The notes beneath the pieces are model-generated. The model saw nothing but the letters and a program-made list of their open reading frames with translations. It was not told where the DNA came from and ran no database searches. A stretch of 64,000 bases of DNA, taken from contig NZ_JADQDK010000001.1 of NCBI RefSeq assembly GCF_019263705.2, positions 558,001-622,000 of the forward strand, read 5' to 3'. A program made the translations under genes and the position numbers. Shown here one piece after another: positions 533 through 11,150 of this stretch (position 1 is its first letter; each line of letters opens with the position of its first letter). The stretch is from Pseudonocardia abyssalis. GTDB taxonomy: Bacteria; Actinomycetota; Actinomycetes; Mycobacteriales; Pseudonocardiaceae.

Positions 533-2104
533 GTGGTCTACGAGGAGCGAGTGCGGGCCGGTCGGCCGGTTGAGGTCGACCCGCCGGCTCCGACGCATGT
601 CTCCACTCGTGACCTGCGGTCCGCAGGCGAGATTCCCCGCCGCGCCGCAACCGGGCGCCGCAGGCTGGTCGTCCCGGCTCGTCTACGGATCATGGCGTGG
701 CTGGTGCTGTTGCTGCTGGTCGCGCTGGTGACCGTCGTCGTCGTCACCCGTAATCTGCTTGTCGCCGAGGCGGAGAGCGACGCCACTGACGCGTTGAACC
801 AGGAGGCCGAGGAGTTCAAGCAGTTCGCCGCGGCCGGGGTGGACCAGGAGACCGGTGCGCGTTACGAGAACGGCACCGAGCTGCTGGAGCGGCACATCTC
901 CCGGCAGTTCCTCGACGACGACGAGATCGTGCTGGGCATCACCGCCGAGGGCGCGATCGTGCCGCAGCGGGGCCGGGAGGCGATCGCGTTGGCCGAGCGT
1001 GCCAGCCGGTGGCAGCAGATCGTGGCCAACCCCGCGTCGACCGACATCCTGCCCACCCGGGACGGCCGGCTGCGCTGGGTCAAGGTGCCGGTCGTCGACG
1101 ACGTGGGCAACGCCGACGGCACCTTCGTCGTCGCGTATGCGATCGACCGCGAGATCCGCGAGATCGACGAGACGATCCGCACGCTGGTGCTGGTCAGCGC
1201 GATCGGGCTGGTGGTGGCGGCCATCGCGTCGTGGGTGGTGTCCGGGCAGATCCTGGAGCCGGTGAACCTGGTGCGCCGCGCCGCGGCCCGAATCAGCCAC
1301 GACGACCTCACCGAGCGGATCGCTGTGGAGGGCCGCGACGACATCGCGGCCCTGTCCGAGCAGTTCAACGGCATGCTGGACCGGTTGGAGCATGCATTCG
1401 GCGCGCAGCGTCAGTTCCTCGACGACGCCAGCCACGAGCTGCGCACCCCGATCACGATCATCCGCGGGAACCTGGAGTTCGTCGGGGACGACGACCCGGC
1501 CGAGCGCGCCGAGGTGGTGCGGCTGTGCACCGACGAGCTCGACCGGATGGGCCGGATCGTCGAGGACCTGCTGCTGCTGGCGAAGGCTGAACGTCCCGAC
1601 TTCGTCGTCGCCGGGGAGGTGGGCCTGGTCGACCTGACCAGCGACATCTACGCCAAGCTGGGCGCGCTCGGGGACCGGCGCTGGGAGCTGGAGTCGATCG
1701 CCGAGGGCGAGGGTCTCCTCGACGGGCAACGGGTGACCCAGGCGGTCATCCAGCTCGCGCACAACGCCGTCGGCCACACCCGGGCCGGGGACGTCATCCG
1801 CTTCGGGTCGGCGGTGACGGCGGCGGAGGCGTCGTTCTGGGTCGCCGACACCGGCGACGGGGTACGCCCCGAGGACGCCGAGGCCATCTTCCAACGCTTC
1901 TCGCGCGGCTCCGCCGGCGGGGCCCGGGCGAACCACACCGGCGCCGGGCTCGGCCTCACGATCGTCACAGCCATCGCCGAGGGGCACGGCGGGCACGTCG
2001 AGCTGCAGACGACGTATCGCCACGGTGCGCGGTTCTCCCTGCACCTGCCCCAGCCCGCGGGTCACCACGAACGCATCGAGCACAGAGAGGACGACACGGC
2101 GTGA
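533..2104 (+). CDS. sensor histidine kinase (OmpR-partner type)
   Basis: Membrane sensor kinase of about 523 residues from GTG 533. Transmembrane helices lie near residues 54-73 and 216-238 around an extracytoplasmic sensor region of about 140 residues. A HAMP domain (about 239-290), a HisKA box FLDDASHELRTP with the phospho-acceptor His near residue 300, and an HATPase domain (N box around 406, DTGDG near 440, GAGLGLTIV near 470) follow. The open frame extends to ATG 473, but that codon lies inside a predicted operator; GTG 551 with an upstream GAGGAG is another choice. It overlaps the response regulator by 4 bp (GTGA). The predicted regulon (secreted acidic proteins, membrane protease) suggests envelope sensing; the signal is unknown. 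Confidence 0.9.
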   Translation: MVYEERVRAGRPVEVDPPAPTHVSTRDLRSAGEIPRRAATGRRRLVVPARLRIMAWLVLLLLVALVTVVVVTRNLLVAEAESDATDALNQEAEEFKQFAAAGVDQETGARYENGTELLERHISRQFLDDDEIVLGITAEGAIVPQRGREAIALAERASRWQQIVANPASTDILPTRDGRLRWVKVPVVDDVGNADGTFVVAYAIDREIREIDETIRTLVLVSAIGLVVAAIASWVVSGQILEPVNLVRRAAARISHDDLTERIAVEGRDDIAALSEQFNGMLDRLEHAFGAQRQFLDDASHELRTPITIIRGNLEFVGDDDPAERAEVVRLCTDELDRMGRIVEDLLLLAKAERPDFVVAGEVGLVDLTSDIYAKLGALGDRRWELESIAEGEGLLDGQRVTQAVIQLAHNAVGHTRAGDVIRFGSAVTAAEASFWVADTGDGVRPEDAEAIFQRFSRGSAGGARANHTGAGLGLTIVTAIAEGHGGHVELQTTYRHGARFSLHLPQPAGHHERIEHREDDTA

Positions 2105-2766
2105 ACCGCATCCTGATCGCCGAGGACGAGGATCGCATCGCGCGGTTCGTCGACAAGGGCCTGCGCGCCAACGGCTTCCTCACCAGCGTGGTCGCCGACG
2201 GCCACGCCGCGCTCGACCACGCGATGTCCGGGCAGTACCAGCTGATGGTCCTCGACATCGGACTGCCCGGCCGCGACGGATACGCGGTACTGCGTGAGCT
2301 GCGCGAGGCCCGGATCGCGATGCCGGTGGTGATCCTCACCGCACGCGACGGGGTGCGCGACACCGTGGCCGGTCTGGAGGGCGGCGCCGACGACTACATG
2401 ACCAAGCCGTTCCGCTTCGAGGAGCTGTTGGCCCGGGTCCGGCTGCGGCTGCGAAGCGCGCCCGGTAGCGTCGCCGAGCCCACGCTGCTCAGCGTCGACG
2501 GGCTCTCCCTCGACCTGCGGACCCGCCGGGCCCAGACCGACGACCGCCGCACGGTCGACCTGAGCGCGCGGGAGTTCGCCCTGCTGGAGTTGCTGCTACG
2601 CCACCCCGGACAAGTGCTGTCGCGGGAGCAGATGCTCGACCACGTGTGGGGCTTCGACTTCGACCCGGGCTCCAACGTCGTCGACGTCTACATCCGCCAG
2701 CTGCGCCGCAAGATCGGCGCCGAGAAGATCACGACGGTCCGCAGGATGGGGTACCGGTGCGGATGA
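2101..2766 (+). CDS. OmpR/PhoB-family response regulator
   Basis: This 221-residue protein (GTG start) has a receiver domain at 1-120 with acidic pocket ED near 8-11, phospho-acceptor Asp52 (VLDIG) and a MTKPF lysine. A winged-helix DNA-binding domain occupies about 130-221 and ends in VRRMGYRCG. It overlaps the cognate kinase by 4 bp. Five similar 18-bp palindromes upstream of this operon and of neighbouring secreted-protein and protease genes make it the likely owner of that operator; this is inference from proximity. Confidence 0.92.
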   Translation: MNRILIAEDEDRIARFVDKGLRANGFLTSVVADGHAALDHAMSGQYQLMVLDIGLPGRDGYAVLRELREARIAMPVVILTARDGVRDTVAGLEGGADDYMTKPFRFEELLARVRLRLRSAPGSVAEPTLLSVDGLSLDLRTRRAQTDDRRTVDLSAREFALLELLLRHPGQVLSREQMLDHVWGFDFDPGSNVVDVYIRQLRRKIGAEKITTVRRMGYRCG

Positions 2767-2771
2767 GCGAC

Positions 2772-2789
2772 CATGAAGGAACCTTCATC
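2772..2789. promoter_or_regulatory. 18-bp palindromic operator, copy 2
   Basis: CATGAAGGAACCTTCATC. This is the most symmetrical copy: ATGAAGG, two bases, CCTTCAT. It lies 36 bp upstream of the acidic secreted protein gene at 2825. Confidence 0.65.
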
Positions 2790-2824
2790 AGGTTCTCACG
2801 TGCGCTTGCGGGTGGGCGGTCACC

Positions 2825-3589
2825 ATGGAGGTCGTGGAACCGGTGAAGAGCACGATCAGACGACAACGCGGTGTCCTGGCGACCGTCCTGGCTCTCCCGC
2901 TCGTTGCAGGCGCGGCGACCTGGGGCCTTGCCGACGGCTGGTTCGACGCCGGGGCCGCCGTGGTCCAGCCGGCCGACGACACCGCCACGATCGGCGGCGG
3001 CGGAACGGTCCTGGAGCTGGCTGAGCTGCTCACCGGTGTGCCGGCGGCGGTGGGCGCGGTAGCGCCCGCGGAGCTGACCTTCACCCCGGGCATGTCTCCG
3101 TTCACGGCCCCGTCGCCCGGGTCGGAGGCGGCGGGTGGGTCGGGAGCCGAACCCGCCGCCGGAGCCGGTGGTGGTGATCCGGTGGTGCCGGGTGCTGCGG
3201 GCGAGGAGGACGGCGCGACCGAGGACGTCGGTGCAGGCGGGCCCGGCGCCTTCGAGGAGGACCCGGGTTCCGGTGCAGACACCGGCACCGATGCGGACCC
3301 GGGGGAGGGTGCGGACTCGGATGGGGGCACGAGCTCTGACGGGTCCGAAGGTGATGCCGGCGGGTCTGAGGGCGAAGGTGGATTCGAGGGTGATGCAGCC
3401 GCCGAGAGTGATGGCGGTGAGTCCGACGGTGATGCCGGTGATTCTGGTGAGGGCGCGGGTGAGGGCGCTGCCGCTGAGACCAGAGGCGAGGGCGACTCCG
3501 AGGGCAGCGAGCAGCCGCAGAGCGATGCAGCCTCGGACGGCGGTTCGGAGGGTGACGGTGAGGACGGCGCGGAGTCCGAACAGGACTGA
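2825..3589 (+). CDS. secreted or anchored acidic low-complexity protein
   Basis: This 254-residue protein has an N-terminal hydrophobic segment (about residues 15-37, GVLATVLALPLVAGAATWG) that looks like a signal peptide or anchor. A short conserved-looking part to about residue 90 is followed by about 150 residues made almost only of Gly, Ser, Asp, Glu and Ala. GTG 2846 is an alternative start. No enzymatic motif is visible. It follows the two-component operon behind a palindromic operator and is closed by a strong hairpin. A surface filler or a carboxylate-rich metal or polymer binder is possible; no family was recognised. Confidence 0.65.
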   Translation: MEVVEPVKSTIRRQRGVLATVLALPLVAGAATWGLADGWFDAGAAVVQPADDTATIGGGGTVLELAELLTGVPAAVGAVAPAELTFTPGMSPFTAPSPGSEAAGGSGAEPAAGAGGGDPVVPGAAGEEDGATEDVGAGGPGAFEEDPGSGADTGTDADPGEGADSDGGTSSDGSEGDAGGSEGEGGFEGDAAAESDGGESDGDAGDSGEGAGEGAAAETRGEGDSEGSEQPQSDAASDGGSEGDGEDGAESEQD

Positions 3590-3603
3590 CGAGCAGACGT
3601 GAA

Positions 3604-3638
3604 GCGACGCCCGGCCGGGGACACCGGCCGGGCGTCGC
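3604..3638 (+). terminator. hairpin terminator
   Basis: Perfect 15-bp stem (3604-3618 with 3624-3638) and a 5-base loop, 15 bp after the acidic protein gene. There is no U-tract, as is usual for GC-rich actinobacterial terminators. Confidence 0.75.
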
Positions 3639-3683
3639 CGTGTTCGGGCTCGGGCGAGCGTCGCCTCCTGCCCCATGGCCCAT

Positions 3684-3701
3684 CATGAGGAGGCCTTCAT
3701 C
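3684..3701. promoter_or_regulatory. 18-bp palindromic operator, copy 3
   Basis: CATGAGGAGGCCTTCATC, centred about 33 bp before the start of the retropepsin-membrane protein gene. It is less symmetrical than copy 2 but keeps both outer arms (ATGARG / CTTCATC). Confidence 0.6.
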
Positions 3702-3724
3702 GAAGCCGGGGCTCCGCTTCATGT

Positions 3725-4987
3725 GTGGCCCGCAAGCTCGTCGTTGTGAACCGAATCGCCCGCACCCCCGCTGCCATCCAGGTCCTGCTTGCCGTCGGTG
3801 CTCTGCTGGTGCTGGGGCTCAGCGTCCTGCTCACCCCGGACCGTGAGTCGACATCAGGCGCAGGTGCGACGATCGGCGAGCAGGAGCTGGTCCGCATCAC
3901 CGGCCCGAACGGGCGCACCGTCGAAGCGGTCGCCCGCATCGACACCGGGGCGTCCGCGTCGTCGATCGACACCGGCATCGCCGAGGACCTCGGCTTCGAC
4001 CTCGAGGACGCTGAGACGATCACCGTGGCGTCGTCGCTGGGCCGCGAGGAGCGGCCGATCGTGGACGGCGCTCTGCAGATCGCCGGGCAGCCCAAGAGCG
4101 TCCGGTTCTCGGTGACCGACCGCAGCGAGCGGTCCAATCCGGTCCTGCTGGGCCGCTCCGAGCTCACCGGCCTGCAGGTGCAGGTGGGTCAGCAGTTGCT
4201 GACCACCCCCGGCGCCGACCGGGCCCCCTCGACGCTGGCCACCCTGCTCTCGCAGACCCCCGCGCTGGGCCCGCTGCAGCTGCTCGCGCTGCTACCGCTC
4301 GCGGTTCTCGTGGTGGTTTTGCTGCGGGTGTTCGTCGGCGTGCAGACCCTCGGCACATTCTCACCGGTGTTGCTCGCGATCGGCTACACCCAGGCCGGCC
4401 TCGTCGCCGGGGTGGGCCTGACGGTGGTCATCGTCGCCGCCGGGTTCGTCGTGCAGCCCCTGCTGCGACGGTTCCGGCTGCCCCGGGTGGCCCGGCTCGC
4501 GGTGCTCGTCGGGGTCGTGTCGGTGGTGCTCGTCGCCATCACCCAGTTCGCCGGCGGCGGCACCGGAGCGATCTGGGGCACCGCGCTTCCCGTCGTCGTC
4601 ACGGCCGTGATGGTCGAGCGGCTCTGGGAGACCTGGGACCTCGACGGGTGGCGCGACGCGGCCCGCGACGCCGCCGCCACCACCGTGGTCGCGCTGCTCG
4701 TGACCGCACTCATGCTCGCCCCGGTCGTGCGGGACCTCGCGACCGTCGCCCCGCTCACCCTCGCGATCGCCTGCGCGGTGTGGGCCGGGCTCGCCGGCAC
4801 CTACCGAGGCCTGCGGCTCAGCGAGCTGCTCCGGTTCGGCCGGGGTCAGTCCGACGAGATCCCGGGGGGGACCGGCGACGCCACCGTGCGGCTGGCCACC
4901 CCCACCCGCAACGACCTGCCCACCGGCCCGCCGGACATCCCCACGGCCGGCGGCCCCGCCACGACCCGAGAGATGACGAAGCGATGA
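3725..4987 (+). CDS. retropepsin-like aspartic protease fused to a multi-helix membrane domain
   Basis: This 420-residue protein has an N-terminal membrane helix (about 17-37) and then an RimB/retropepsin-like domain (about 50-160) with active-site RIDTGASASS (Asp73-Thr-Gly) and a flap/ILG-like VLLGRSELTG. Six or seven hydrophobic helices follow (about 175-380) and resemble the 7TM module usually fused to inactive transglutaminases. It overlaps the ATP-grasp gene by 4 bp (ATGA). Retropepsin/7TM/ATP-grasp neighbourhoods are a recognised amidoligase theme, thought to add or trim peptide tags outside or at the membrane. GTG 3746 is an alternative start. The substrate is unknown; the neighbouring acidic proteins are candidates. 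Confidence 0.75.
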   Translation: MARKLVVVNRIARTPAAIQVLLAVGALLVLGLSVLLTPDRESTSGAGATIGEQELVRITGPNGRTVEAVARIDTGASASSIDTGIAEDLGFDLEDAETITVASSLGREERPIVDGALQIAGQPKSVRFSVTDRSERSNPVLLGRSELTGLQVQVGQQLLTTPGADRAPSTLATLLSQTPALGPLQLLALLPLAVLVVVLLRVFVGVQTLGTFSPVLLAIGYTQAGLVAGVGLTVVIVAAGFVVQPLLRRFRLPRVARLAVLVGVVSVVLVAITQFAGGGTGAIWGTALPVVVTAVMVERLWETWDLDGWRDAARDAAATTVVALLVTALMLAPVVRDLATVAPLTLAIACAVWAGLAGTYRGLRLSELLRFGRGQSDEIPGGTGDATVRLATPTRNDLPTGPPDIPTAGGPATTREMTKR

Positions 4988-5910
4988 GCATCCTGACCCC
5001 CCTGCGCAGCACCCCGTCCCTGCCCGGCCGCGCGGCTCGCCCGCAGCGTGTACGCCGTTGGGATCGCATCATGGGCCTCAACGCCCGCAACCAGCTGATC
5101 GCCCGTGCGAACCCACCCCAGGCCGTCCGCCTGGTGAACGACAAGGTGGCCACCAAGCGGGTCCTGACCGCGCACGACGTGCCGGTCGCCGACACCCTGC
5201 TGGTCATCGACTCCCGGTGCATGCTCGCCCGCACGGACTGGGCCGCACTGCCGGACTCGTTCGCTCTCAAACCGAGCCAGAGCCTGGGAGGTTCGGGGAT
5301 CCTGCTGGCCGCCCGGCGCAACCCGGCCGGTGACGGGTGGGAATCCGCCTCGGGCCGCCCGATCACCGTCGGCGACGTGCGCGAGCACGTCCGCTGCATC
5401 CTCGACGGCGAGTACTCGCCCCGCGGTGACGACGTCGCTTTCGTCGAACCGCTGATCCGCGCGCACCCCGTGCTGGACGACATGTCGTTCCGCGGGCTGC
5501 CCGACATCCGGGTCATCTGCGTGGACGACCAACCTCTCACCGCGATGCTGCGGCTGCCCACCTCGGCCAGCGGCGGGCGCGCGAACCTGCACCAGAAGGC
5601 CATCGGCGCGTCCGTGGACCTGGCGACCGGGACCGTCGAGCGAGCCTGGATGGGCGGGGACTCGATCGACACCCACCCCGACACCGGCAACCGGCTGACC
5701 GGGCGCCGGGTCCCGCACTGGGAGACGGTGATCGACGCGGCCCGCCGCTGCTCCGCCGCGACCGGCCTGCGCTACCTCGGCGCCGACGTCGTCGTCGACG
5801 CCGACCGCGGACCGATGTTGCTGGAGGTCAACGCCCGGCCCGGCCTGCAGATCCAGAACGTGACCGGGCGCGGGCTGCTCGACATCCTCCCGCCGGACGT
5901 GGCGGCATGA
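4984..5910 (+). CDS. ATP-grasp peptide ligase (alpha-L-glutamate ligase/RimK-like)
   Basis: This 308-residue cytosolic ligase starts at ATG 4984, overlapping the protease stop. ATP-grasp hallmarks are a glycine-rich nucleotide loop (ALKPSQSLGGSGILLA, about 93-110), FVEPLI, and the terminal metal site LLEVNARPGLQIQN (about 284-298). Members of this group (COG0189-related) form amide bonds between a carboxylate and an amino compound through an acyl phosphate. Overlap with both neighbours implies one operon with the protease and the acidic anchored protein. Whether it extends a side chain, tags a protein or makes a free peptide cannot be read from sequence. Confidence 0.8.
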   Translation: MSILTPLRSTPSLPGRAARPQRVRRWDRIMGLNARNQLIARANPPQAVRLVNDKVATKRVLTAHDVPVADTLLVIDSRCMLARTDWAALPDSFALKPSQSLGGSGILLAARRNPAGDGWESASGRPITVGDVREHVRCILDGEYSPRGDDVAFVEPLIRAHPVLDDMSFRGLPDIRVICVDDQPLTAMLRLPTSASGGRANLHQKAIGASVDLATGTVERAWMGGDSIDTHPDTGNRLTGRRVPHWETVIDAARRCSAATGLRYLGADVVVDADRGPMLLEVNARPGLQIQNVTGRGLLDILPPDVAA

Positions 5911-6476
5911 CCTGGCAACCGGAGAACGGGTGGCCGTGGCTGATCGGGCGCTGGGCCGTCGCGACCGGCGCCGGCGCGGTCCTCGGAGGTGCGCTCTGGT
6001 TCGGTGAACCCGGATCCGACCGGACGCTCGAGCTGGAACCGACCGCCACCCGCGAGGTGGTGCTCGACCCGCAGGAACAAGCCGAGCTGAGCAGCCTCGT
6101 CCCGGACGTCGGGGTCCCGGACGACCCCACCACAGACGTCGACGAGGACGAGCGGTCCCTCGCGGACGACGCCGACCGGTCCGTGTCCGACAAGCCGCCT
6201 CCCGACGACGCGACCGACCGACGCGACACCCTCGGTGACTCCGATGACGGTGACTCCGGCGGCGGTGACCCCGACCGTGGCGAGTCCAGCGACGGCGGCA
6301 CCGGCGAGTCCGACGACGGCCGATCGAGCGGCGCCGACTCCGAAGGGGCGCGGGAGTCCGACAGCGCCGACGCCGACGACACCGACCAGGAACCGGCGGA
6401 TTCCGACACGGACCGGGACTCCGACACCGACCGGGACGGCGAAGACGAGTCCCGTGACGACGAGGAGGGCGACTGA
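5907..6476 (+). CDS. membrane-anchored acidic Asp/Ser/Gly-rich protein
   Basis: This 189-residue protein overlaps the ATP-grasp gene by 4 bp. One N-terminal helix (about residues 8-32) is followed by a region with ELEPTATREVVLDPQEQAEL and then about 110 residues that are mostly Asp, Ser, Gly, Thr and Glu. No domain was recognised. Its position as the last gene of a translationally coupled ligase operon makes it a plausible structural partner or substrate of the ligase/protease pair; this is inference only. Confidence 0.65.
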   Translation: MTWQPENGWPWLIGRWAVATGAGAVLGGALWFGEPGSDRTLELEPTATREVVLDPQEQAELSSLVPDVGVPDDPTTDVDEDERSLADDADRSVSDKPPPDDATDRRDTLGDSDDGDSGGGDPDRGESSDGGTGESDDGRSSGADSEGARESDSADADDTDQEPADSDTDRDSDTDRDGEDESRDDEEGD

Positions 6477-6528
6477 TTCCGTGGACCCCCGACCCCTACC
6501 CGCCACTCGAATCACCCATGGAGGAACA

Positions 6529-7095
6529 ATGTTCACCCGTACACTGCGCACCGCAGCCGTCACCGCGATCGCCCTGCCCCTCGCCGTCGGTCTCGCTCCC
6601 GCAGCCCATGCCGCCGACCTGGAGTGCCGCGGCACGCTCGGCGCGGTCACCGTCGCCGGCAACCTGCTGGTCCCCGACGACTCCACCTGCACCCTCGACG
6701 GGACCACGGTGCTCGGGTCGATCGTCGTCAAGTCCCGGGCCACCCTCGTGGCCACCGGCATCGAGACCAATGGCAGCATCCAGGGGGAGAGCCCGGCCCG
6801 CGTCGACGTGCGCGACTCGCAGCTGGGTAACAGCATCCAGCTCCGCAAGGGCGGGCCGGTGTTCATCTCTGCGACCACGATCACCGGCGACGTCGCGCTG
6901 GAGGAAAACCTCGGCCAGGTCGAGCTGACCGGCAACGACATCGTCGGCAGCGTGCAGGCCAACAAGAACACCGGCGGCCTGGTGATCACCGGCAACGTCG
7001 TCGGCAACGGCCTGCAGTGTCAGGACAACTTTCCGCCGCCCGCCGGCGGCGGCAACGTCGCGAAGCAGAAGCAGGGGCAATGCCTGAACCTGTGA
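6529..7095 (+). CDS. secreted beta-helix-like protein (polymer-forming-type repeats)
   Basis: This 188-residue protein starts at ATG 6529, behind GGAGG. The signal peptide ends near AAHAAD (residues 25-30). The mature part carries a Cys pair (DLECRG, STCTLDG, about 30-55) and a regular series of short hydrophobic strands (GSIVVKS, GSIQGES, NSIQLRK, GDVALEE, GSVQANK), spaced about 20 residues apart. This suggests a right-handed beta helix similar to bactofilin or polymer-forming proteins. It follows the ligase operon by 52 bp and may be co-transcribed. A surface scaffold is the most economical reading; no enzyme motif is seen. Confidence 0.7.
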   Translation: MFTRTLRTAAVTAIALPLAVGLAPAAHAADLECRGTLGAVTVAGNLLVPDDSTCTLDGTTVLGSIVVKSRATLVATGIETNGSIQGESPARVDVRDSQLGNSIQLRKGGPVFISATTITGDVALEENLGQVELTGNDIVGSVQANKNTGGLVITGNVVGNGLQCQDNFPPPAGGGNVAKQKQGQCLNL

Positions 7096-7977: not shown

Positions 7978-8190
7978 TCAGGGCTGGGCGCAGGCGCCGT
8001 CGCCGGCGCAGCCGAGCTGCACGGTCTGATCCGACAGGGGTGTGACTGCTGGCGGACCGGCGGCCAGCAGCGCACCGCCCAGGGCCGTCGCGACGGGCAC
8101 GGCCAGCACGGCCAGGGGCAGGGCCAGCCGGGACCGCAGCGTCCGGCGCACGGGCGGGTGGGACGTCGTCGGACGTGGGTACCGGTTCAT
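7978..8190 (-). CDS. small secreted or anchored protein
   Basis: This 70-residue protein begins at ATG 8190 (MNRYPRPTTSH). A basic N-terminus is followed by a hydrophobic helix (about 18-40, LALPLAVLAVPVATALGGALLA) and a short mature part with two cysteines near the end (LGCAGDGACAQP). It is divergent from the chimeric protease-like gene, and the two share an intergenic region with two 18-bp palindromes. That placement argues it is a real gene of the same regulon. No family was recognised. Confidence 0.5.
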   Translation of the reverse strand: MNRYPRPTTSHPPVRRTLRSRLALPLAVLAVPVATALGGALLAAGPPAVTPLSDQTVQLGCAGDGACAQP

Positions 8191-8234: not shown

Positions 8235-8252
8235 GATGAAGCCTCGATCATC
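8235..8252. promoter_or_regulatory. 18-bp palindromic operator, copy 4
   Basis: GATGAAGCCTCGATCATC, 45 bp upstream of the minus-strand small secreted gene, with copy 5 at 8267-8284. Paired sites in a divergent promoter region. Confidence 0.55.
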
Positions 8253-8266
8253 TGCGTCCCCGTACG

Positions 8267-8284
8267 GGTGAAGGGTCGTTCATC
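8267..8284. promoter_or_regulatory. 18-bp palindromic operator, copy 5
   Basis: GGTGAAGGGTCGTTCATC, 50 bp upstream of the chimeric protease-like gene (ATG 8335). It shares the CGTTCATC arm with copy 1. Its centre is 32 bp from that of copy 4, about three helical turns. Confidence 0.55.
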
Positions 8285-8334
8285 GGAACCGCATCCCGCC
8301 CTCATGAGACGTGCCTAACGTCGGCGCCGTGCTG

Positions 8335-9447
8335 ATGTCGACCCCCCGCCCCAGGAACTTTCGTCCCCTGCCCGCCGCGGTCACCGCGGTGCTGGCCGTG
8401 GCCGCTCTCGCGGCAACCGTGTTGATCATCTTGCTGCTCCCGGGCGGCCTCGACACCGCGGGTCACCGGGCCGAGATCGGGGAGGAGGAGATCGTGCGGG
8501 TCACCGGCCCGGACGGGTCCGCGACGGTAGTGCTCGCGCAGATCAGCACCGGGGTGGCCGGATCGTCGATCGACACCGTGCTGGCCGACGAACTCGGCCT
8601 GCCGCGCACCGAATCCGACCGGGTCACCGTGACCTCGGCCTACGGGGTACAGATCCGCGACCGCGTGCCAGCCACGGTGCAGCTCGCCGGCCAGCCGCAG
8701 AGCACCCGCCTGGTCGCCGTCGACCGGGAGCCGGACGAGCCTGCGCTGATGATCGGCCGATCCGAGTTGGGCGGCCTTCTCGTCCGCCCGGGGATGCGGT
8801 TGCTGACCACTCCCGGAGCCGAGCGTGACGCACCCGCACTGGGAGCGCTGCTCACCTCCAGCACCGCCCTCGACGCCGTGCAGGTGCTGGCGCTGATCCC
8901 GGTCGCGGCACTGCTCGTGGTGCTGCTGCGCGCCGTGGTCGGGCTGCGCACACTGGGCACGTTCTCCCCGGGTGACGCCCCGTGCACGCTCGGGAAGACC
9001 GCGGCGGTATTCCGCGGCGCCGCGGTCTCGGTCCTCGGCCTGCTCGGCGCCGGCACCGCCCAGGCATCCCACGACGGCGGCTACGGCAGGGGATACGGCA
9101 GCGACGACTTCCGCACGGTCTCCTACATCAACCCCGACATCGGTGCGGCCACCGGCGTCGGCCACATCAGCGCCTGCCCGGACCCCGACGGCGCCGGCCC
9201 GCAGTTCGCCCGCCTGTCCCAGGACCTCGGCATTGTCGGAGTGGGAGATCGACCCGGCGACGTCGAGTACCACGCACGCGTGTACGACAACACCGCCACC
9301 GCCGCCGGGCAGCAGGACGTCCGCTGGGGTCTGGACGGCGACCTCGACGGCCTCGACCGTCGCGGCATAGACGGCACCATCACCGTCAATCGGTCGGCCG
9401 ACGGCACCGACGGCGGAGCCCGCGACTATTCCTACAGCGGCCGCTGA
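8335..9447 (+). CDS. chimeric paralogue: inactive retropepsin-like domain joined to an unrelated secreted protein
   Basis: Residues 1 to about 212 align throughout with the protein at 3725-4987 (signal helix, retropepsin domain, first membrane helix, LRTLGTFSP). The active-site Asp is replaced: ISTGVAGSS in place of IDTGASASS (Ser71). At about 8970 similarity stops at GTFSP and the frame continues into a different sequence with its own signal-like helix (AAVSVLGLLGAGTAQAS) and a Gly/Asp/Tyr-rich tail. Five of the seven membrane helices are missing. An upstream GTG (8311) is possible. It looks like a deletion fusion that has kept an open frame and the shared operator. Confidence 0.7.
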   Translation: MSTPRPRNFRPLPAAVTAVLAVAALAATVLIILLLPGGLDTAGHRAEIGEEEIVRVTGPDGSATVVLAQISTGVAGSSIDTVLADELGLPRTESDRVTVTSAYGVQIRDRVPATVQLAGQPQSTRLVAVDREPDEPALMIGRSELGGLLVRPGMRLLTTPGAERDAPALGALLTSSTALDAVQVLALIPVAALLVVLLRAVVGLRTLGTFSPGDAPCTLGKTAAVFRGAAVSVLGLLGAGTAQASHDGGYGRGYGSDDFRTVSYINPDIGAATGVGHISACPDPDGAGPQFARLSQDLGIVGVGDRPGDVEYHARVYDNTATAAGQQDVRWGLDGDLDGLDRRGIDGTITVNRSADGTDGGARDYSYSGR

Positions 9448-9519
9448 CCGATATCAGCCACCAGGCGGGAGCGGAAACAGGCCACGGCGGCGACGAGCTA
9501 CGGCTATTGCGATGTGACG

Positions 9520-10497
9520 TCACCGCCCCGCGCTTATGCCCAGGTGTAGATGATCTTGATGTACCTGATCGGTGAAGAATGCGGGACCCGGAATTGCGAT
9601 AGGTCCACCGACCTCGGTTGCTCCGGTGCGGGCGGCTACGGCCATCACCTCCGCCAGCACCGGATCGTCCCGTGGAATGTCGACCACCGGTCTACCGTCG
9701 ATGGCGCGGATGTCGACGGCGCGGCCGACCGCGTGGTTGGAGACACGGCTGCGTGGAAAGACGGTTCCGGGGTGTCCGGTCACCGCCACCTGGATCTCCA
9801 ATTCATAGGAGTCGGCCAGTGCGGCGACCACGGTGAGGATCCCGTCGGAGACCCGTCGTTCCTCGATGTCCCTCCGCGCCGGGCCGTGCAGCTCGACACC
9901 CGGGGTGTCGAGCACGGCCTGTCCGACGGGCGTCGGCCCGTCCGGCCGGGCGGGCACGACATCGGGACGTGCAGGATCGATCGATCCGGACACCCGCCAT
10001 CCGGCGTCGTCGCGGACGGCGCGAATGTCGACGGTGACCTCGCGGGTCGTCGTCCCCAGCTGTTGTCGCGCGGCCACGATCACGCTCGCTGACCGTTCGG
10101 TGAGACCGCCCAGCTGCGGATAGCGCACGGTCGTCACCGCGGCGGGCGTGTCCACGTCCAGTAGCGGACCTGCGAGTACGGCAAGATCGGCTGGGTAGCC
10201 CGCCGCGACCACGCGCGCTGCCGGATCCCGTGACTCCCCGGCGCTCCAGCTGCCCACCCGCTCGACGAACCCGCTGGCGACCTGTTTGATCTCCGCCTGC
10301 TCCTCCTGTCCGGACGGACGCCAGCCCGTGTCGGGGGTCGCCGGGGCTGTGGTCGCCGGCGGTGCGGACGGTGCAGCGGCCGTTGTCGGGGCCTGCCCGC
10401 TCCCGCGCACGCCGACAACGAACGCGAGCAGGCAACCGGCGATGAGCAGCACCGCCAGCAACCCGCGGCCCATTCCCGTGGACGGCACCTGGATCAC
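9520..10497 (-). CDS. M15-like secreted peptidase (LAS-type metallopeptidase fold)
   Basis: This 325-residue protein starts at GTG 10497, overlapping the acetyltransferase stop (GTGA). An N-terminal anchor helix (about 10-30) and a Thr/Ala/Pro-rich linker precede a central domain of unknown type and a C-terminal domain with SNHAVGRAVDI and QDHLHLGI. The His/Asp and terminal HxH pattern is the zinc site of VanY/M15-type D-Ala carboxypeptidases and related peptidoglycan hydrolases. It is the last gene of an operon with AsnB/LtsA-like and GNAT proteins, which supports a cell-wall role. The exact bond cleaved is unknown. Confidence 0.65.
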   Translation of the reverse strand: MIQVPSTGMGRGLLAVLLIAGCLLAFVVGVRGSGQAPTTAAAPSAPPATTAPATPDTGWRPSGQEEQAEIKQVASGFVERVGSWSAGESRDPAARVVAAGYPADLAVLAGPLLDVDTPAAVTTVRYPQLGGLTERSASVIVAARQQLGTTTREVTVDIRAVRDDAGWRVSGSIDPARPDVVPARPDGPTPVGQAVLDTPGVELHGPARRDIEERRVSDGILTVVAALADSYELEIQVAVTGHPGTVFPRSRVSNHAVGRAVDIRAIDGRPVVDIPRDDPVLAEVMAVAARTGATEVGGPIAIPGPAFFTDQVHQDHLHLGISAGR

Positions 10498-11150
10498 GTT
10501 CTCGCCTCCACGGGGAGCGTCGTGCCGAAGCGTCGTACCCATCGGCCGTCACGGGTCCGCACGTCCTCGAGCGGCGACCAGCCGAGGCCCCGGTAGAAGG
10601 ATTCGGCAGGTCCTCCGATCTCGGTGACGAGCTCGGCGGTCCGGACCCCGGTCACGGCGCACCGCGCGAGGAATCCGCGGACGAGTGCGGCTCCCGCGCC
10701 CTGGTCGCGGGCGGACAGGTCGACCGCGATCGCACTCAGATCGGCGACGCGACCTTCCGGCCCGCCGACGGCCGCCGGGGTGCGGAGTCGGCGCGTGTAC
10801 CGCCTGAGCCGGGTGCGGGCGAAGAGCAGCAGCGTCCTGGGGCGACCGGCCAACGCGAGCGCAGCGCACCCGACCAGGGCGGTCCGGTCACGTGTCAGCA
10901 GGTCTCGCACCAGTGCGGTCCGGTGGGTGGCGCCAAGGAGGAAGCCCACGACGGTGGTCCCGTCGCGGTCGATGCGCTCGCAGACCAGCACCACTCCGTG
11001 CTGACTCCGCACCACGCCCTGGTGCCAGCGTCGGACAAAGCGCGGTCCCAGGCGGGGGAACAACCCCACCGGCAACTCGGTCACGTGCAGCAGCGCCGTC
11101 CGTTCCAGGTCCGCGACCGTCGCATCTCGCACGCGTACCGCCCGGTTCAC
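10494..11150 (-). CDS. GNAT-family N-acetyltransferase
   Basis: This 218-residue protein starts at GTG 11150, which overlaps the AsnB stop by 4 bp (GTGA). The GNAT core has VRVRDATVADLERTALLH at the start, acetyl-CoA loop DLSARDQGAGAALV near 140-153 (Q/RxxGxG/A) and the C-terminal AESFYRGLGWSP typical of the family. An Arg-rich, hydrophobic insertion lies mid-protein. Its coupling to an AsnB/LtsA-like amidotransferase and an M15-like peptidase suggests modification of a cell-wall precursor or exported metabolite; the acceptor is not known. Confidence 0.75.
   Translation of the reverse strand: MNRAVRVRDATVADLERTALLHVTELPVGLFPRLGPRFVRRWHQGVVRSQHGVVLVCERIDRDGTTVVGFLLGATHRTALVRDLLTRDRTALVGCAALALAGRPRTLLLFARTRLRRYTRRLRTPAAVGGPEGRVADLSAIAVDLSARDQGAGAALVRGFLARCAVTGVRTAELVTEIGGPAESFYRGLGWSPLEDVRTRDGRWVRRFGTTLPVEART

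Follow-up and report, generated by a model that had tools for sequence, protein, structure and literature searches.

What might a bacterium accomplish by building a retropepsin-like protease into a membrane protein and encoding it immediately before an ATP-grasp ligase? This question arises from a gene cassette in a 64,000-nucleotide stretch of the Pseudonocardia abyssalis genome (assembly GCF_019263705.2, contig NZ_JADQDK010000001.1, positions 558,001 to 622,000; hereafter the window, with coordinates counted from its first letter). An initial annotation of this DNA proposed that the ligase and the protease add and remove an amino-acid tag on surface proteins or a wall polymer. Judged by its sequence, the cassette is a fused variant of the Rlo-type system: a retropepsin and a PF14402 seven-transmembrane (7TM) domain are encoded as one polypeptide, an RloC-like ligase is encoded by an overlapping gene, and both genes lie in a regulon, defined by a shared operator motif, that includes a kinase-regulator pair. 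We consider that the cassette probably operates as a stress-regulated Rlo-type system.

The fusion gene (3725-4987, forward strand, as are all cassette genes below unless noted) encodes 420 residues that comprise one N-terminal transmembrane (TM) helix, an RloA-like retropepsin domain and an RloB-like 7TM domain, in this order. The GTG at 3746 is the likelier start, giving 413 residues, the same as database copy P0001. Specifically, the membrane portion matches PF14402 (7TM_transglut) with an E value of 4.1e-31 and 108.8 bits against a cut-off of 25, which bears out the proposal that a retropepsin is fused directly to a multi-helix domain. Both Foldseek and VIA match the retropepsin domain to RloA2, RloA and retroviral proteases. 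The catalytic motif IDTGA is present, and D73 is kept in 42 of 45 sequences, the remaining ones being of the B type described below. Four basic residues (two if translation starts at 3746) precede the N-terminal helix, and from this helix and the positive-inside rule the protease domain is predicted to lie outside the membrane and the C-terminus inside. The curated RloA models (NCBIfam NF052262-NF052264) were not reached, with 31.4 of 210 bits for RloA3 and 20.4 of 250 for RloA2; Aeromonas RloA likewise falls under every curated RloA cut-off.

The ligase gene (4984-5910) overlaps the fusion gene by 4 bp (4984-4987). Its product is an ATP-grasp glutamate-ligase-like protein that matches PF14397 with an E value of 2.6e-57 and 194.6 bits against a cut-off of 31.4, and it scores 232.4 bits with TIGR02291 (profile positions 10-284 of 317). 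The ligase therefore groups with these glutamate-ligase-like families instead of an unrelated soluble biosynthetic family, though it remains under the TIGR02291 cut-off of 314.2. Similarity to RimK is distant (best Protein Data Bank (PDB) match, E 0.0013), with 45.9 bits for the RimK-type TIGR00768 (cut-off 143.4) and 33 bits for PF08443 versus 195 for PF14397. Two RimK residues, R189 and N262, are described in PMC10092738 as contacts of the bound glutamate chain. With RimK residue numbers assigned by a count along the PDB chain, their counterparts in the ligase are R176 and N283, which are invariant in all 17 aligned sequences; the comparison comprises these two contacts, and the N-terminal contacts S7, R8, S14, R64 and S68 lie outside the alignment.

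The genetically characterized counterparts of the fusion and the ligase are the RloABC proteins of Pseudomonas aeruginosa (PMC12239564, mBio 2025), a system that the initial annotation did not name. It is important for osmotic and antibiotic tolerance in Pseudomonas, and the paper leaves its substrate and mechanism open. Cells that lose three RloA proteases are harmed, an effect that loss of rloB or rloC relieves, fully for hypoosmotic growth and partially for other defects (PMC12239564). These suppression genetics fit a scheme in which RloC makes a product, RloB, which combines a 7TM part with an inactive transglutaminase, is needed, and RloA disposes of the product. The same paper places RloA2 next to CreBC and the Vibrio cholerae rlo genes under VxrB control. 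A link to the cell envelope also comes from Shewanella, where disrupting a 7TM gene of the inactive-transglutaminase type increased the output of membrane vesicles (PMC12096838).

The cassette resembles RloABC in encoding a retropepsin, a PF14402 7TM domain and a PF14397 ATP-grasp protein together, in the A-B-C order seen in Aeromonas, and in its link to a two-component system. It differs in that the protease and 7TM parts form one polypeptide from which the inactive transglutaminase is missing (no PF14400 match by Pfam in the window's fusion), with the retropepsin in that place. Relative to Aeromonas RloA, the fusion has a shorter stretch between the catalytic aspartate and the first pocket arginine, and the Pseudonocardia cassettes add acidic proteins and a paralogue whose protease is dead. 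The cassette appears to work like Rlo, yet by strict family tests its components lie outside RloA and RloB as curated, and its ligase falls short of the TIGR02291 threshold. RimK-RimB offers a second parallel, as an ATP-grasp glutamate ligase that shares the two conserved glutamate contacts is paired with a retropepsin that cuts poly-glutamate; however, RimB is cytoplasmic and has no membrane part (PMC12239564), whereas the protease domain here belongs to a predicted membrane protein. The Rickettsia retropepsin APRc (5c9f) is also among the closest known systems. It is not known to have a 7TM domain or an ATP-grasp partner.

Are the cassette genes regulated together? The motif TGARG-N5-TTCATC is located 23-43 bp upstream of four genes in the window. 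Forward-strand operators precede the sensor histidine kinase gene (operator 474-489, 43 bp upstream of the GTG at 533), the gene for acidic protein 1 (2774-2789, 35 bp upstream of its start), the fusion gene (3686-3701) and the gene for paralogue B (8269-8284, with the same 16-mer in all four genome copies, and a second site with one mismatch at 8237-8252). With at most one mismatch, the window contains six sites versus 0.42 expected from shuffles, none of which reached six, and none of 362 150-bp segments taken elsewhere in the window had such a site. Exact sites number 10 in the whole genome, and, as a control, the reversed pattern gives none. Eight of the 10 lie at matching four places in two cassettes, the one in the window and a second, inverted copy at C1:524-533 kb, the two fusion genes being about 35 kb apart. 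These counts uphold the shared operators first noticed by the initial annotation. All four genes keep an operator, with at most one mismatch, in P. oceani and in isolate OFTM178 (paralogue B of OFTM178 was read in locus L010). In P. nigra the operator is present only at the fusion gene, and none occurs within 150 bp of the genes for the kinase and acidic protein 1.

The regulatory pair itself consists of the kinase (533-2104; two TM segments, HAMP, HisKA and HATPase_c by Pfam) and an OmpR-type response regulator (2101-2766, also by Pfam), whose genes overlap by 4 bp. The kinase is 67-88% identical in the four other Pseudonocardia cassettes. Every gene that the initial annotation listed is present: this pair, the acidic open reading frames (ORFs), the fusion, the ATP-grasp protein and a beta-solenoid-like ORF discussed below.

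The core of the cassette is conserved beyond this genome. In all 12 loci read, an active-type fusion is followed directly by the ligase, and the fusion stop and ligase start overlap by 4 bp in 11 loci and by 1 bp in one, such that the fusion-ligase pair with its membrane part has been retained as a unit. Gene order and ligase family were the two points on which the initial annotation said that its reading could fail, and neither counts against it. These loci are five Pseudonocardia cassettes from four genomes, one Lentzea-like locus, one from Kibdelosporangium, three that are Streptomyces-like and two from a deep actinobacterial family; a ligase query led to two of them, and PF14402 or a fusion protein to the rest. 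Few genomes carry the system, and its distribution is patchy. At the genus level, PF14402 turned up in 3 of 40 genomes; the figures are 3 of 297 for the family, 2 of 394 for the class, 3 of 343 for the Streptomyces-like genus and 2 of 39 for family f58. A phylum search with a fusion protein yielded 5 of 396 genomes; the window's own genome is counted at the genus, family, class and phylum levels, one class match (L026) is a non-fusion, and two phylum matches (G941 and G1068) are RloA-like pieces only. A search of 62 genomes of the genus for the ligase gave strong matches in four, the window's own genome among them, and a single weak one at 29% identity. All four genomes with a strong match also carry the fusion, the search for which covered the genus members of the 40-genome and 297-genome sets.

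Joining of these activities is seen in other arrangements as well. A chromosome-sized Aeromonas record in the plasmid collection has three separate genes in the order RloA, RloB (PF14400 and PF14402) and RloC. In Halobacterium sp. DL1, a single 584-residue frame combines PF14402 (51-243) with PF14397 (286-557), and in Salinirubellus a RimK domain (112-290) is joined to retropepsin-type domains within 359-436; each of these haloarchaeal fusions is known from one record. The Salinirubellus ligase belongs to the RimK type and is missed by the RloC profile. Its union with a retropepsin shows that ligase-protease pairing is general. The fusion in P. abyssalis would place the cutting step on the membrane part and, taken with the 7TM-ligase fusion of Halobacterium, argues that all three activities act on one product in one place.

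A further member of the regulon is paralogue B (8311-8970), a retropepsin-7TM relative in which the catalytic aspartate is replaced by serine (ISTG). This change is present in all seven copies (window, L008, L014, L010, P0098, P0103 and P0107). The three database copies each keep 11 of 12 checked conserved 7TM positions, with E367 replaced by aspartate; P0103 also lacks R133. Of the four genome copies, two are damaged: the window copy is truncated behind helix one of the 7TM domain, its frame (8311-9447) running on into an unrelated stretch that resembles another exported protein, and the OFTM178 copy lacks most of the 7TM domain. Because the serine replacement is combined with a retained 7TM domain and damage in two of four genome copies, paralogue B looks like an old dead protease that has been kept in some strains and is decaying in others.

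How might such a system function? The cytoplasmic ATP-grasp protein would join L-glutamate, either as free poly-alpha-glutamate or on a protein C-terminus. The 7TM domain may dock the ligase and carry or present the product across the membrane, at whose outer face the retropepsin, as a dimer, would cut it. The two-component pair would sense an envelope or osmotic condition and set the amount, and paralogue B could act as a 7TM partner without a protease, analogous to RloB with its dead transglutaminase. A more specific version is rather unlikely in our estimation. It holds that ligase, 7TM and retropepsin form one membrane complex that builds, exports and crops poly-alpha-glutamate, that in Pseudonocardia this complex also glutamylates the conserved C-terminus of a dedicated acidic anchored protein, making this an extracytoplasmic polyglutamylated bacterial protein, and that the dead paralogue regulates by forming mixed dimers.

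The acidic proteins are central to the tagging idea, in which acidic anchored proteins would receive glutamates at their C-termini from the ligase before export and lose them outside to the retropepsin. Acidic protein 1 (2825-3589; 22% D+E) has one clear N-terminal TM segment by simple hydropathy, and its gene is under the shared operator. Acidic protein 2 (5907-6476; 32% D+E) is encoded with a 4-bp overlap with the ligase gene (5907-5910), which, with the fusion-ligase overlap, agrees with the coupling first described. Its acidic character is as the initial annotation stated; the anchor is likely rather than certain, as the N-terminus is moderately hydrophobic and hydropathy scored no TM segment. 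The residues D, E, S and G abound in both tails, that of acidic protein 2 being especially Asp-rich. The five orthologues of acidic protein 1 end in SEQD (the window), SEED (three) and SDED, for a consensus of S-[ED]-[EQD]-D in which positions -1 (D) and -4 (S) are invariant, whereas positions -5 to -14 agree in at most three of five. Escherichia coli RpsF, a RimK substrate, ends in GDSEE. Given the composition of the tails, an ending like this would arise by chance with a probability of 0.003-0.011 per protein, a value to be read with the facts that the motif was defined after the endings were inspected and that the copies are related. The last four codons are identical in three of four DNA copies, and therefore selection on the protein is not separated from plain DNA conservation.

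Other observations weigh against tagging. A P. nigra relative of acidic protein 1 ends in ETDG. Moreover, relatives of both acidic proteins, like those of the kinase and regulator, occur in all five Pseudonocardia cassettes (diverged in P. nigra, with protein 1 on the opposite strand), but their N-terminal parts have no match in any of the seven other actinobacterial loci, four of which were also screened for any same-strand acidic ORF. Such proteins therefore cannot be the general substrate. RloA cleavage required a run of eight glutamates (PMC12239564), and no encoded acidic-protein tail contains one. The acidic proteins are candidate acceptors, and we judge tagging unlikely overall; the conserved ending of acidic protein 1 sustains the acceptor idea as a lead, not proof. 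With a defined regulon and candidate acceptors, the Pseudonocardia cassettes make the substrate question testable.

Two other explanations were considered. If a CztRS-like pair raised polyanionic anchored proteins that bind metal or calcium at the surface, with the fusion and ligase trimming or extending their charge, the cassette would be a cation-buffering regulon. The best NCBIfam relatives of the kinase and regulator are indeed the heavy-metal families TIGR01386 and TIGR01387, and one remote operator (G000:C1:2467557-2467572; L045 2557-2572) is flanked by a heavy-metal P-type ATPase on one side and a multicopper-oxidase locus on the other. However, both proteins score under the family cut-offs, this site is single, the other of the two remote sites has no heavy-metal gene context, and NarL-type pairs are found near the core in four of the seven loci outside Pseudonocardia (L024, L051 and L052 by Pfam, L053 by tblastn). 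In L025, L038 and L039, no two-component pair was noticed in gene lists, and no profile scan was made there. We regard a metal regulon as quite unlikely. Finally, the retropepsin-7TM protein might be a regulated protease for ordinary exported proteins, with the ATP-grasp gene a co-regulated neighbor that makes a separate metabolite. Among the literature records listed, no published substrate was found for this family in actinobacteria, which leaves room for this proposal; the coupled order in every locus read, the co-occurrence within the genus and the 7TM-ligase fusion oppose it and make it very unlikely. A stress-regulated, fused Rlo-type system thus remains our favored interpretation.

The cassette extends further to the right than first described, to include the truncated paralogue B with its own operator and, divergent from it, a small ORF with one hydrophobic segment (7978-8190, reverse strand). 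The small ORF has relatives of 58-72% identity in three other Pseudonocardia loci. A secreted beta-solenoid-like ORF (6529-7095; Pfam match under cut-off) had been counted as a member, a status that it loses: no operator lies within 150 bp of it and the other four Pseudonocardia cassettes contain no relative, and hence it is treated as a neighbor. A perfect 15-bp inverted repeat (3604-3638) located 3' of the gene for acidic protein 1 is terminator-like from a reading of its sequence alone.

Several additional features were observed near related genes. Stand-alone RloA-like ORFs are present in an actinobacterial family, in L038 (9985-10500, directly after the fusion and ligase) and L040 (4347-4880), with pieces in L041 and L042. 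The non-fusion L026 protein (9494-11032, reverse strand) has PF14402 without a retropepsin or recognized transglutaminase, and there is no ligase match in its 20-kb stretch. Near the core in the three Streptomyces-like loci is a PAD_porph (peptidyl-arginine/agmatine deiminase-like) gene whose product has a signal-like N-terminus (by Pfam in L051, 4639-5823, and by tblastn in L052 and L053). Two phage-type integrase genes identified by Pfam (L012 6733-8016 and 8716-9951) lie between the inverted cassettes, each immediately preceded by a small ORF that by eye resembles an excisionase-type helix-turn-helix protein, and an integrative element is possible.

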